This document shows positions 5,619 through 10,597 of a DNA stretch of 36,482 nucleotides, in pieces (the first letter of the stretch is position 1; the number at the start of each line of letters is the position of its first letter). Origin of the DNA: Planctomycetota bacterium (lineage in GTDB: Bacteria; Planctomycetota; JACOTG01; JAJDCM01); the NCBI GenBank assembly GCA_029260825.1, contig JAJDCM010000353.1:1-36482 (forward strand), written 5' to 3'. The position numbers and the translations under genes are program-made. A model generated the notes under the pieces. That model ran no database searches. It saw only the letters and a program-made list of their open reading frames with translations, and was not told where the DNA came from.

Positions 5619-6524
5619 TCAAAGCCCTCTTGCCCCTTCCGGCGTAAGAGGAATCTCACCGGAAAGAGCCCCGTCTAGAACTTCCAGAATCCTCGTTCGA
5701 TCACGGGGAAGTCGCCCGCCCAGGGGCAAGTAGTTCGACGCGTGGTTGGTTCGGAAAATGGCGTCGCTTGGGTTCGCATCTTGCACGAACTGCCGAAGCT
5801 CACGCAAGAGTTCCAGGACTGGCGGAAGCTCAAACCGCCCCCCCTCCTCAAGTTTTGCGATCGGAGTTCCAGGAATCACGGTCAGGGTCAGCAGGGAGAC
5901 AAACCGAGGGTCCATCGCCGTAGCAAGCCGCGCCGATTCCCGTCGATGCTCCTCGCTCCGTTCTATCCCACCTGCACCAAGAAGAAAGATCGCCGAAAGC
6001 TTCATCCCTGCTATGTGTGCCTTCCTGGCCCCCTCCACGTGATCGGCGAAATCGGCCCCCTTGGCGATGCGCTTCAAGGTGACATCATCCCCCGATTCCG
6101 GCCCGATATACAGGAGACTGAGACCCCACTCTCGCAGGAGTTCAAGCTCTTCCGGGCTCTTTTCCAGAAGATTCATGGCGGTGGCATACGCACTCACCCG
6201 CCGGAGTCGAGGAAATGCCTCCCGGCATTCTCGAAGAAGAATCTCCCAGGTCTCAAGAGGCAAGACCAGAGCATCCCCATCGGCGACAAACACCTTCTCC
6301 ACCTCGGTCCCGTGGAGCAACTTCGCCTGCTGGATATCTTCCAGGGTCTCCGGGAGGTCTCTTACCCGAAACGACTTATCCCGATACATATCGCAGTAGG
6401 TGCATGCATTCCACGAGCACCCGATCGTCGCCTGAAGTATGTAGGAGTACGCCTCACTCGGCGGCCGGTAGATTTTTCCTTCGTAGCGCAAGAAACCATG
6501 CTCCTGAGGTTTTGTTCCGCACAT
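5619..6524 (-). CDS. Radical SAM protein with CX4CX2C cluster motif
   Basis: About 301 residues. The iron-sulfur motif is ATIGCSWNACTYCDMYR, giving Cys36, Cys41 and Cys44 with CX4CX2C spacing rather than the common CX3CX2C. This spacing occurs in an Elp3/YgiQ-like subgroup of radical SAM proteins, whose members often have GCSxNxCxFCxMY. Other supports are LLYIGPESGDD (SAM-binding beta strand with Glu), GAGGIERSEEHRRES, and TVIPGTPIAKLEEGG near the C-terminus. The substrate is unknown. The start at 6524 is chosen for a GGAG site 10 bases upstream; an upstream in-frame start at 6566 lacks this. It lies downstream of the large FG-GAP protein on the same strand and converges with the amidase gene. 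Confidence 0.9.
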   Translation of the reverse strand: MCGTKPQEHGFLRYEGKIYRPPSEAYSYILQATIGCSWNACTYCDMYRDKSFRVRDLPETLEDIQQAKLLHGTEVEKVFVADGDALVLPLETWEILLRECREAFPRLRRVSAYATAMNLLEKSPEELELLREWGLSLLYIGPESGDDVTLKRIAKGADFADHVEGARKAHIAGMKLSAIFLLGAGGIERSEEHRRESARLATAMDPRFVSLLTLTVIPGTPIAKLEEGGRFELPPVLELLRELRQFVQDANPSDAIFRTNHASNYLPLGGRLPRDRTRILEVLDGALSGEIPLTPEGARGL

Positions 6525-6587
6525 ATTCTTTAATCTCCATCGAAAACACTCAAAAGTTATCCACACAACATCAGCATCCCCCCCCCC
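6525..6587 (-). other. Short leader with an 11-C homopolymer and a DnaA-box sequence
   Basis: Between the end of the large FG-GAP gene and the radical SAM start lie 63 bases. They contain an uninterrupted C11 run (6578-6588, a G run in the transcript; its last C is part of the stop codon of the preceding gene) and one TTATCCACA (6557-6565), which matches the DnaA-box consensus. No terminator hairpin is visible, so read-through from the upstream gene is possible. Confidence 0.5.
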
Positions 6588-9500
6588 CTAGTTTTTTCCA
6601 GAAGCAGCACCGGATTCGAGATGCTTCTTGAGTTCGGTCGCAGCACGAGAGTTCGGATGAAACTCCAGGACCGCATTCACTTCCTTCAAAGCCTCTTCCA
6701 TCCGCTCTTGCTGGATGAAAAGACCCGCTAGATTCGTCCGGAGGTCCTCATTCCGGGGGCGCAATTCGATCCCCGTGCGAAACACCCGGATCGCATCATC
6801 TACCTTTTCCAGCTGGACGAGGGCATACGCCAAATTGGTGACGCAATCCGGCTGATTCGGCTTGATCTCCAGTGATTGTCGGTAAGCAGATGCAGCCTCC
6901 TCAAAGCGCTCCTTCTTGATGAAGAGGTTGCCAAGGTTGTAGTGCACGCTGGGCCGGGCCGGGTCAATTGCAATCGCAGCCTCGAAATGACCAACAGCTT
7001 CCTCCGTCCTGTCCATCATTCCCAGGAGCATTCCTAGATCATGATGGGCTTCTCCCATGGTCTCATCGATCTCGATGGCTCTCTCGAAATGGCGGACAGC
7101 GGTCTCCAGCTCGTTTCGCGCGGCAAGGGTCGTCGCCAATCGATGCTGGCACAAGGCCGCGAGTGCGGGCCTTGGTTCCTTGGAGAGTAGTTCCGCAAAA
7201 AGAACCCCGGCCCAATCCATCATCCCGTTGGCACGGAAGGACTCGGCAAGCTGAAAAAAGACCATCTCATCCCCAACCTCGGCCATCCGCTTGACCCCAT
7301 CATCCGGGAGAAGAGAGCCCGGAAGACAGGCGGCGCGTTGCTCCCGATCCGCACGGGATCCAGCTGAATGGGCAAGGTCTGCGAGTACCTGGTCAACCGC
7401 AACCGCACCCTTGTAGATCACAGAAAGGCGGCCCGAGCCATCGACAAGAAAACTTGTGGGCACAGGAAGTGGCTTCGTCATCAAGAGAAGATGATCGTGA
7501 TAAAGCTGAAGGGTCTGAAGAAGTCCAGAGCTGGCGAGGCCCGCATCAAACGGCAAGTTCAATCGGGCCGTCATGGCCGCAGCCGATTTTGGACTCGCTC
7601 GTCGATCCCCCAGGCCATCGACGGACAGAGCCACTACCTGTAGTCCGTTCTCCTTGAGTTCACCGTTTCGAATGGCAAGCTCGGAAAGTTCCCGAACACA
7701 GGGAACGCACCAGCTCGCCCACAGATTCACCAGCACTGGCCGCCCGGTACCAAATCGAATGACTCGATCAAGACCCTGGAAATCCTGAAAGCCGATGTTG
7801 GGCATGGGAAGAAGATTCACGAGAGGAATTCGAGACTGTGCCCTGGGGTTTGGCAGCGAAATCTCGGAAGGAGAAAGGCTGGCTCCATCTGGCCGAGCCT
7901 TGACCACCGTCCCCCTCCCTTGCCCCTGCACGAGCTCATATCGGCCATCGACTGAAAGACCGGTAAAGTCTTCGGCCTCTCCACCAGGCCATTTCACCAC
8001 CACCCGATCGATGGCAGAAATCGTCCCCAGTCCGAAGTGAATCCACTTGGAAGATTGGCCAAGAAAACCCTCGCCCGCCCGGAGGGTGTCCACCAGCTTC
8101 AGGCTCGAAAGTTCCGGGGCGACGACCTCGACTCGAGCGCCGATGGCATCTCGGTTGGTTGTAGTTCCATTACCGACCAGACGAAGAGCCAGGTACCGAC
8201 CCGTCTTCTTCGAGTCGTTGCGTAGGAATCGCAGCCGGGGGGCGTTTCGATTGGAGATCCACAGGTCTTGATCTCCATCCTGATCCCAATCGACAACCCC
8301 AACCGCTCGCGCGTCATCCGGAAAATCCAATCCGGAGACCGCTGATACATCGGCAAACCGGGGCCCGCCCGTATTCAAGTAGACGCAGTTGCGCTCCCGG
8401 CCACTGAAGGAGCGACCCTGCCTCATCATCCGGGCAAGTTGAGCCCGGGCCAACCCAAGGTCATTCGATGTTTGCTGGTTCTCATCGTCCAGAGTTCGCG
8501 ACACGACCTGTCGCCAGAAGAAGCTTCACAAATCCCCCGTATCTTCGGCAGTGATGTAACCGTTGCCCACCACGATGTCTTTCCAGCCATCGTTGTTAAG
8601 ATCGACAAAGTTCGACCCCCAGGCCCAACGTCCCATCGTCACGCCAGCTGTCTCACTGACGTCGGAAAACCCACCCTCTTGGTTGGAAAGAAGGGTATTC
8701 CCACGGGCAAAACGCCGCAGTCGATTCCGCACTTCTTCGGAAGCATCAGGTTTGAATTTCTTTTGCCCGGTAATCCTTCCACCAGCCGACGAGAACATAT
8801 TGCTGACATGGACATCCATCCGACCATCTCGGTCGAAATCGGCCCAGGACACTCCCATGCCCGAGGCGCTGTCCTCTGCCCCGGTGGTTGCAGCCATGTC
8901 CTGAAACGTAGCTCTCCCCGTTTCAGCAAGAAGATTCTGATATAAATTATTACGGCCAAAATCGTTCCCTACATACAGATCCTGGTCACCGTCGTTGTCG
9001 AAGTCTTCCCAGGAAGCGGCAAGACTGTAGCGACGATTGTTCTTGTCGAGACCGACCTCATCGGTGGCATCGGTGAAGCGGAAAGGCTCTCCCTTTTCCA
9101 GATCGTTTCGATAGAGACAATTTCGGCCCCCATTATTCGCGTCGTGGTAGACGCCTCCCGAGCCTCCGCCCGCAAGTGACGCAGCCCGTGCCGAGTCAAC
9201 TTGCATCTTTCCGTAGTCCACACAGACATAGAGGTCGAGGTCGGCATCGTTGTCGAAATCGACCGCGGTCAGAGTCATCGTGTCATCATCGGTGGGAAGA
9301 ACCGTTTTCACCGAAAAACGATCCCCAAGATTTTCACAGACGACTACATTCCCGAGGAGTGCCACGGTCAGGTCCTGGTCTCCATCTTGATCCAGGTCCA
9401 CCAGGAGAGCGCTCCGGCTCGCCTCCAGCCAGTCAACGCCCCATTCCTTGGAAACGTCGGTGGCGGTTCCATCCGGATTCTGGAGAAACAGCCGATTGGG

Positions 9501-10490
9501 AAGCCCCCCTTCCTGACACGAAAAAACGTCGTCCATCCCATCGCCGTTCACGTCCCCCACCGAAAGTCCGGCAGCTCCCAAAAGAGCGAAATATCTCGCA
9601 TCTTGAGCTCGCTCGAACCATTCAGACATCCCGCGCAGAAACTGCTCCTCGAAGTCCGCGTTCTTTCCGAGAACGGATGTGGTGCAGTCGGTAAACAACG
9701 TCTCGTTCCCTTCAACCGTCGTCACCTGTTCGAAATCAGAGATTTCAATGCTTGCAAGCTTTGGAGCCAAGTCTCCTGAAACACTCCACCGGGTTTCCCA
9801 GGTTGATTTCTGTTCGATGTAGCTCTTTTTGCTTCGTCCCGATATTGAAAAATACTGCTTCGTGATGGAACCTTGCCCCTCTTTTTCTCCCGCATCTTCC
9901 CCTGCATTTTCACGGATATCAAAAACCTTGAACTTCACCCGAAGATCTGTAGCTCCGCGAAAAATCCGAGCGATCTCTTCCAGAGCCCCGGAGAATCCAT
10001 CTCGGCCCGCAAATGATGCTGAACTTGACCCGCCATCGCTCCTTGCAACCGCCACCGTCCCGTCGGAAAAGACAACCTCAAGGTTCCCGGGGACCAGAGC
10101 CCCACAAGAAAAGCCATCCACGACTAGCTTCTCTCCCTCGGATTCTGAAAGGGGTTCGCCCGAATGAAACAGTTTGGAGAGAGATTTCAGCTGCGCGGTG
10201 ACCTGGTCGTGAAATGCCTCGGAATCCCAGCCGTCGCTTTCCGGGTCATCGACCTCTGCCCAGCTCTTTCCCATGAACAACCGCGTTGGACGTCCATCGT
10301 CCACCGGAGGTGTCCATTCGACCTCCTGGGTTCGGGGCGTCGAGTTTTCTTTCGACCCGATGACTCCGGGAAAGTCTTCTTCTTCTTTCATCCGGGGAAG
10401 AATCACGGCGATAGCGACCAGGATCGCAATCACAACCATGAGAAGGATCCAGATCAAGACTCCGCCTGATTCCGCCGGCTTTCCTTGCAT
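6588..10490 (-). CDS. Candidate selenoprotein: membrane-anchored FG-GAP / ASPIC-UnbV / TlpA-thioredoxin / TPR protein with in-frame TGA
   Basis: One frame of 1300 sense codons is interrupted only by TGA at 8526-8528 (residue 655). In order: an N-terminal membrane anchor (residues about 10-33, VLIWILLMVVIAILVAIAVI); a 200-residue unclassified region; FG-GAP/VCBS repeats with calcium-binding signatures (DVNGDGMDD, DLDQDGDQD, DFDNDADLD, DLNNDGWKD); EDTGDL-TGA-SFFWRQVV; an ASPIC/UnbV domain (about 770-857); a TlpA/ResA-like thioredoxin domain with WCVPC at 927-931; and TPRs at about 1100-1290. FG-GAP repeats followed by ASPIC/UnbV is the normal architecture of CRTAC1-like proteins, so the two halves belong together. 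A SECIS-like hairpin follows the TGA. The start at 10490 is chosen because it places the anchor at the N-terminus. The conventional reading would be two genes, 8526-10490 and 6588-8504 (GTG start). A nonsense mutation or sequencing error remains possible. Confidence 0.75.
8495..8525 (-). promoter_or_regulatory. Candidate bacterial SECIS hairpin
   Basis: Read on the minus strand immediately after the TGA: GCGACA (8514-8509), loop GGUCG (8508-8504), UGUCGC (8503-8498) is a perfect 6-bp stem. Three further pairs (UUC 8519-8517 with GAA 8497-8495) can form below a two-base bulge on the 5' side. The loop GGUC begins 18 bases after the UGA. In E. coli fdhF, from memory, the loop is also CAGGUC, begins 19 bases after the UGA, and the stem has a 5'-side bulge. 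SelB recognises the loop G-U and the bulge in that element. The match in sequence, spacing and shape is unlikely to be chance, though no search was run. Confidence 0.65.
8526..8528 (-). other. In-frame TGA, proposed selenocysteine codon
   Basis: The codon lies between GAC-TTG-like codons for TGDL and AGC-TTC-TTC-TGG for SFFW, in the same frame on both sides. Nearby genes end with TGA in the ordinary way (for example at 2418-2420, 5591-5593, 13271-13273 and 23372-23374), so a genome-wide reassignment of TGA is excluded. The proposed reading is EDTGDL-U-SFFWRQ. Confidence 0.7.
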
Positions 10491-10597
10491 TCTCACTTTG
10501 CTTCTGCCTTCGTTAGGGTTATACGGGCGATTTTGGGATAATGCAGCGTTGATCTGTTGAGACACACTCAGGCCGATGAGAGTTCCAGAATACACAC
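10491..10597. promoter_or_regulatory. Divergent intergenic region
   Basis: About 107 bases separate the start of the candidate selenoprotein gene from the M42 peptidase start, so both promoters should lie here. A GATAAT sequence at about 10538-10543 could be a plus-strand -10 box for the peptidase; no clear -35 partner was found. Confidence 0.35.

Follow-up and report, generated by a model that had tools for sequence, protein, structure and literature searches.

The minus-strand gene described here, which lies in a window of 36,482 nucleotides (the whole stretch of DNA that was analysed), very likely encodes a selenoprotein with selenocysteine (Sec) at the UGA in positions 8526-8528. This conclusion is inferred from sequence, and no selenium, peptide or activity data stand behind it. 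The gene is read as a selenoprotein because the UGA is conserved in two phyla, a conserved hairpin accompanies it and the whole Sec machinery is encoded in the source genome. It is also very likely, again by inference from sequence, that the gene belongs to a family of envelope selenoproteins that spans Planctomycetota and Acidobacteriota, so that the finding goes beyond the single gene of the preliminary description, an earlier note made from the sequence alone.

The frame 6588-10595, limited upstream by a GTG at 10595, is open apart from one internal stop, the TGA, and the claim of the preliminary description that this codon interrupts a single frame therefore held. On the frame lie, in this order, FG-GAP repeats, an ASPIC/UnbV domain, a TlpA/ResA-like thioredoxin domain and tetratricopeptide repeats (TPRs; table 1). 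Five stretches were assigned to PF13517 (FG-GAP) by the Pfam search, which also bore out the claim that FG-GAP repeats precede the TGA and ASPIC/UnbV follows it. As PF13517 repeats and PF07593 both score above the gathering threshold, the protein qualifies as a member of the CRTAC1/ASPIC-UnbV FG-GAP family, and its thioredoxin-like domain, having a CxxC, qualifies as a TlpA/ResA-like thioredoxin domain. The NCBIfam models TlpA, ResA and DsbE match this domain below their cut-offs. The numbering of the proposed Sec as residue 655 holds when counted from the likely start codon, and its reading as Sec is supported by sequence evidence, without selenium data. This residue is located on the propeller, about 270 residues upstream of the all-cysteine CxxC. 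In an ORF listing that takes TGA as a plain stop, the gene is reported as two truncated genes. Directly downstream is a radical SAM gene (5619-6566, minus strand). At 6578-6588 a run of G separates the TAG that ends the selenoprotein gene from an ATG, which itself shortly precedes the GTG listed as the start of the radical SAM gene.

Table 1. Positions in the window of the putative selenoprotein gene and its features.
Feature	Positions	Strand	Basis and remarks
Coding sequence through TGA	6588..10490	-	Likely start ATG 10488-10490, picked by inspection
Hydrophobic N-terminal stretch, probable membrane anchor or signal	10395..10460	-	Translation by eye, no predictor
FG-GAP beta-propeller region with the Sec site	8151..9578	-	Approximate limits, by inspection; PF13517, structure model, 9etn match
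UGA codon, inferred to be read as Sec	8526..8528	-	Column conserved among homologues; Sec is residue 655 from ATG 10488-10490
bSECIS-like hairpin, 6-bp stem GCGACA/UGUCGC, loop GGUCG (8504-8508)	8498..8514	-	Fold; conservation across homologues
UnbV_ASPIC domain (PF07593)	7938..8147	-	Pfam, 59.7 bits (cut-off 23.4); downstream of TGA
TlpA/ResA-like thioredoxin domain (AhpC-TSA, PF00578)	7425..7748	-	Pfam, 36.4 bits (cut-off 26); Foldseek ResA and TlpA
CVPC redox motif in the thioredoxin domain (WASWCVPC)	7698..7709	-	Translation and homologue comparison
Tetratricopeptide repeats	6636..7142	-	Pfam; approximate limits

Homologues were sought with 212 amino acids around the TGA in 199 genomes, the source genome included. 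Matches were found in 114 of them. In at least 52 (counted by hand) a match contains a single TGA, whose identity as the Sec codon rests on direct reading for the fetched loci alone. The TGA occupies one invariant column in an alignment of 32 loci, all selected for having this codon, and is surrounded in most of them by the motif NG-x-x-[TS]...D-[LT]-U-S-x-x-W-R-x-V. A wider alignment of 104 rows kept only sequences that extend for at least 20 residues upstream and at least 40 downstream of the column, and left out hits to other domains (L024 and L034 are the same place twice); its Sec column holds U 78, C 11, Q 3, R 3, A 2, L 2, N 2, H 2 and one gap. All but one of the 11 Cys rows were obtained by scanning genomes with a single pattern that demanded Cys, so these ten establish the existence of Cys forms, not their frequency. 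Outside these ten loci Cys occurs in 1/94 rows (L132, the unselected one) and in 0/30 Acidobacteriota loci. The ten pattern-found Cys homologues have uninterrupted frames of 840-1340 amino acids, and selA is over its cut-off in eight of their ten genomes; the hosts of Cys forms include Phycisphaerales, another planctomycete and Bryobacterales/Terriglobia.

The Acidobacteriota were covered by 199 genomes from the phylum to which a Bryobacterales MAG belongs. Matches at E <= 1e-15 occur in 56 of these genomes, and 26 of the 56 have a TGA-bearing match spanning the Sec site (counted by hand). The 30 loci retained have U 22, S 3, N 2, A 2 and G 1 in the Sec column. The expectation that the column would show either Cys or a TGA accompanied by a hairpin in homologues was thus fulfilled. 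Outside the Cys-selected set, replacements by residues other than Cys (Ser, Ala, Asn, Gln, His, Arg, Gly, Leu) are commoner than Cys; this counts against the Sec reading, as the site is dispensable in those paralogues. Several one-TGA family matches stand in close succession on contig C253 of genome G114 and contig C204 of genome G145; the five on C253 are spaced at intervals of about 3-4 kb. Such clusters point to selenoprotein genes arranged in tandem.

In bacterial Sec insertion, SelB carrying Sec-tRNA binds the loop of a hairpin and the ribosome inserts Sec. The preliminary description had pointed to such a hairpin, and its perfect 6-bp stem, its loop GGUCG and the start of CAGGUC at +16 after the UGA were all confirmed. 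Positions +12 to +17 pair with +23 to +28, leaving 17 bases between UGA and loop, and the fold energy is -9.5 kcal/mol for the isolated hairpin and -11.0 kcal/mol for the UGA plus 31 nt. A 5'-side bulge, also claimed, was not confirmed, and the predicted fold below the stem has a 1x1 internal loop only. The SECIS model check proposed at that time gave no match and no SECIS in an Rfam search of 8440-8560; the published limits for bacterial SECIS elements (bSECIS) are all satisfied, namely a loop of 3-9 nt, a stem of 4-16 bp, a spacing of 16-37 nt, MFE <= -7.5 and G in the first two loop positions (PMC13188914). Over the whole window a full stem in this register follows 6 of the 1216 TGA triplets (both strands, any frame), and three of these six have G in the first two loop positions. 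Given this background, the hairpin alone is weak, moderately surprising evidence, and it is the comparative evidence that makes the case strong.

In the fixed register all six pairs form in 50 of 76 distinct TGA sequences, where 2.2 would be expected from synonymous-codon shuffles, and the mean number of pairs in the 76 is 4.63 as against 3.31 shuffled (sd 0.10). The full stem is present in 6/11 Cys forms (five close relatives and L066) and in 0/13 homologues that have neither Sec nor Cys at the site. In Acidobacteriota it is found in 18/22 TGA loci vs 0/8 with other residues (near-identical rows were not removed), and pooling gives 68/98 Sec forms vs 0/21 with other residues (Fisher p 1e-9, uncorrected for relatedness). 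When the register is left free, the best stem reaches at least 6 bp in 72/76 TGA sequences (mean 7.03 vs 5.08 shuffled; GCGCAC-GGUC-GUGCGC is an example), and in a shuffle test of the hairpins one by one only 18/76 reach p <= 0.05. Covariation is visible at +17/+23, which changes from A-U to G-C, and at +15/+25, which varies among C-G, G-U, A-U, G-C and U-A. From 34 sequences sharing the protein motif S-x-x-W-R-[QRH]-V, RNAalifold returns exactly this stem, with compensatory changes in two of the six pairs; from a mixed alignment of 54 sequences, which includes subfamilies with shifted registers, it returns no consensus structure. In these 54 the cells with both-sided changes number 35, vs 17.6 in shuffles and 6-19 in slid controls. 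The shuffles are not exceeded in pairs with a both-sided change (4 vs 3.2) or in pair types (10 vs 10.0), and the control slid by -3 comes fairly close (68.2 vs 74.1% paired).

Two groups of loci deserve a separate remark. The Phycisphaerales Cys form L066:3324-7343 has TGC and yet keeps a perfect SECIS-type hairpin and the CxxC, and possibly represents a recent change from Sec to Cys. Loci L109, L064, L107, L114, L122, L126 and L129-L131 have other motifs after the Sec (e.g. PPFWKSVV, LPFAEGAV) and hairpins in a shifted register; these subfamilies have perhaps met the shared constraint on coding and RNA structure in separate ways.

The comparative evidence bears on whether the TGA is simply a true stop, so that the locus would represent two proteins, a pseudogene or an assembly error, the downstream part being translated from an internal GTG (8502-8504). 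In favour of this, a 638-aa ORF does begin at the GTG at 8504. Against it, many separate genomes from two phyla have this TGA with both flanks conserved in frame, the homologues with Cys and other sense codons are uninterrupted, and the full stem is missing from all 21 homologues that have another residue than Sec or Cys in the column. We therefore reject a stop, pseudogene or assembly error as very unlikely. The situation that the preliminary description had named as a refutation, other residues at the column and no hairpin, is found in paralogues. Since these have lost hairpin and TGA alike, they support rather than refute the selenoprotein reading.

The source genome is a draft of 8.37 Mb in 425 contigs (90% complete, 4.9% contamination). 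Its placement in Planctomycetota is inferred from a search of the phylum of G199, the Phycisphaerales genome with locus L066, in which matches have the contig coordinates of several same-phylum relatives of the window (e.g. C56:126479-127102). The check for Sec machinery proposed in the preliminary description found everything: selB (373 bits), selA (546.5 bits) and selD (371 bits), all over curated cut-offs, and a tRNA-Sec (71.5 bits; ARAGORN tRNA-SeC, anticodon tca) about 110 nt past the end of the selA match. The sel genes are on contigs other than that of the window, and selD is also interrupted by a TGA, with a hairpin of similar kind after it. Since SelA, SelB, SelD and tRNA-Sec are all encoded, the source genome should decode Sec. 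Among the searched genomes selA is over its cut-off in 47/52 with a listed TGA copy vs 88/147 others. Of the five TGA genomes without selA over the cut-off (G060, G149, G163, G172 and G175), three are 77-84% complete, and G175 has a partial selA just under the cut-off. Two more TGA-interrupted paralogues occur in the source genome, one with its hairpin in a shifted register (L022, G000:C415:2302-2958) and one with a weak motif and a best stem of 5 bp (L023, G000:C216:5580-6128).

It could still be argued that the TGA is read as another residue, such as Trp by recoding or suppression, without selenium. Read-through as such is indeed required by the conserved downstream domains. However, Trp is found in 0/104 rows and in 0/31 rows (the 30 Acidobacteriota loci and the window), and on this ground recoding as Trp was rejected. 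All four Sec genes are present in the source genome, the hairpin is within the bSECIS limits, and Cys is one natural substitute at the site. Read-through without Sec is therefore considered very unlikely, and insertion of Sec, which would give the motif NGYIT...DL-U-SFFWRQVV, remains the preferred reading.

The inferred selenoproteins show a link between the Sec and the thioredoxin domain. The CxxC is present in 69/81 Sec forms, 1/11 Cys forms and 1/20 others. A phylogeny of 112 sequences (FastTree, Sec column masked, midpoint root) has Sec as its root state under Fitch parsimony, with 10 changes vs a mean of 29 after label shuffling. That Sec is ancestral in the propeller family can be said only tentatively, as a possibility, because the sampling favoured Sec-like sequences. 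The non-Sec forms make up nine separate maximal clades, and a proper CxxC domain is missing in eight of them, except for one member, L168, of an Acidobacteriota clade. From this joint loss it is inferred that Sec and CxxC act together, the CxxC probably reducing the Sec.

The alternative is that the protein is a selenoprotein whose Sec is independent of the fused thioredoxin, serving for example as a metal or haem ligand or a structural site, or being reduced by another protein. On the one hand, 12/81 Sec forms lack the CxxC, di-haem oxidoreductase genes lie near 5/20 Sec homologues, and no partner cysteine near the Sec that is conserved in all members was found in the aligned loci; a possible resolving Cys next to the Sec (ERNC) is present in 41% of 54 Sec forms. 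On the other hand, Sec and CxxC were lost together (69/81 vs 1/20) in 8/9 separate non-Sec clades. In the fetched stretches of five loci with domain-less Sec forms no separate thioredoxin gene was found nearby. We lean slightly against independence, and reduction of the Sec by the CxxC domain of its own chain is an inference that could go either way.

A structure model of frame residues 140-1080, built from 11 sequences (mean pLDDT 77, pTM 0.76), shows a helix (model 550-562) inserted in the propeller and places the Sec where this helix begins. The local pLDDT there is modest, about 50-71, and no distance between Sec and CxxC could be measured. The top Foldseek match is murine CRTAC1 (PDB 9etn; E 2.4e-25, TM normalised to target 0.75), and many thioredoxins of the ResA/TlpA type are among the best matches.

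The neighbourhood offers few functional clues. A di-haem oxidoreductase gene (PF06537) was found near 5/20 extended Sec loci, domain-checked in two and assigned by BLAST clustering for the rest (L144, L146, L149, L153 and L154, four of the five with a second FG-GAP protein nearby); it is not among the scanned window genes around the selenoprotein gene. The radical SAM gene at 5619-6566 was dropped as a functional partner, because a phmmer search (E <= 1e-3) of 30 other family loci found no relative of it in their ORFs, as far as these loci were fetched. A hydrazine-synthase link, prompted by PMC12758564, was likewise not upheld and is a lead only, no hydrazine synthase appearing among the phmmer PDB matches for the di-haem neighbours of L144 and L149.

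The mechanism that we propose is putative throughout. The product would be a secreted or membrane-anchored CRTAC1-like beta-propeller, the Sec at the start of the inserted helix would be its redox nucleophile, and the TlpA/ResA-like CxxC domain of the same chain would reduce it. The di-haem oxidoreductase neighbours hint, as a lead only, that the substrate may belong to periplasmic peroxide or electron-transfer chemistry.

The preliminary description knew of no selenoprotein family of this type, and this held against two published family tables: there is no FG-GAP or UnbV entry among the 87 (2022, PMC9312934) or the 119 (2026, PMC13188914) prokaryotic selenoprotein families tabulated. No such family is named in passages of the deep-Sep paper (PMC12013277). 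In the full texts searched no selenoprotein occurred with UnbV and no selenocysteine with FG-GAP, and the matches for selenoprotein/FG-GAP/bacteria and selenocysteine/CRTAC1 were unrelated, judging by the listing. The family may nevertheless have been described already, perhaps in supplementary tables. Planctomycete selenoproteins are reported in the supplementary S9 Table of PMC4807772, and this table, PMC12013261 and Deng et al. 2026 (Cell Rep 45:116760) are outside our literature check; in addition, the NCBIfam model of a ResA-like WAxxUGC selenoprotein weakly matches the thioredoxin domain (33.9 bits vs a cut-off of 300). Against this stand the two tables, the searched full texts and the Sec region of 32 members, for which all NCBIfam matches are weak (best E 0.0017) and no selenoprotein model is among them. 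Prior description is thus unlikely, and within the limits of the check the family is likely to be a large, apparently unlisted one.

A bolder reading would make this the founding family of beta-propeller selenoproteins, in which a catalytic Sec on a CRTAC1-like propeller is recycled by a fused thioredoxin domain, Sec is ancestral and many paralogues occur in some genomes (tandem arrays), and Planctomycetota and Acidobacteriota would spend much of their selenium on this family, as one of its main uses. We consider that this reading, taken as a whole, falls a little short of being probable. Two aspects of the more cautious reading are relevant beyond the single gene. First, the family suggests for ASPIC/UnbV proteins a redox function that can be tested, and it may explain why selenium use is kept in these bacteria; second, annotation that reads TGA as a plain stop would split each family gene in two.

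The comparison with known systems begins with the hairpin. The hairpin of E. coli fdhF directly follows the UGA and has GGUC in its loop. The window hairpin shares both properties with the fdhF-type bSECIS but differs in its short stem and in the absence of an extended lower stem from the predicted fold. As to the protein, its best structural match, murine CRTAC1, shares the FG-GAP propeller plus ASPIC/UnbV, and a sequence profile (A1) aligns to 9etn outside the Sec segment only. CRTAC1 is not known to have a thioredoxin domain, TPRs or Sec, and to our knowledge the FG-GAP propeller of CRTAC1 type has no clear biochemical role. FG-GAP genes annotated as "CRTAC1 family" have been described beside hydrazine-synthase-like genes, some of them in Planctomycetota (PMC12758564). 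The likeness consists in an FG-GAP gene annotated as CRTAC1 in a haem-protein neighbourhood, but selenocysteine is not mentioned in the main text of that paper, and identity with the propeller selenoprotein family is not established. The C-terminal domain with WASWCVPC resembles the periplasmic thioredoxins of the TlpA/ResA/CcmG type. Characterised selenoproteins mostly carry Sec in a thioredoxin-like fold (PMC13188914), and in the known UxxC Prx-like selenoproteins it lies inside the motif; in the window protein, by contrast, the CxxC is all cysteine and the inferred Sec is located elsewhere, on an FG-GAP β-propeller of CRTAC1 type, where it appears to evolve together with the fused thioredoxin domain.
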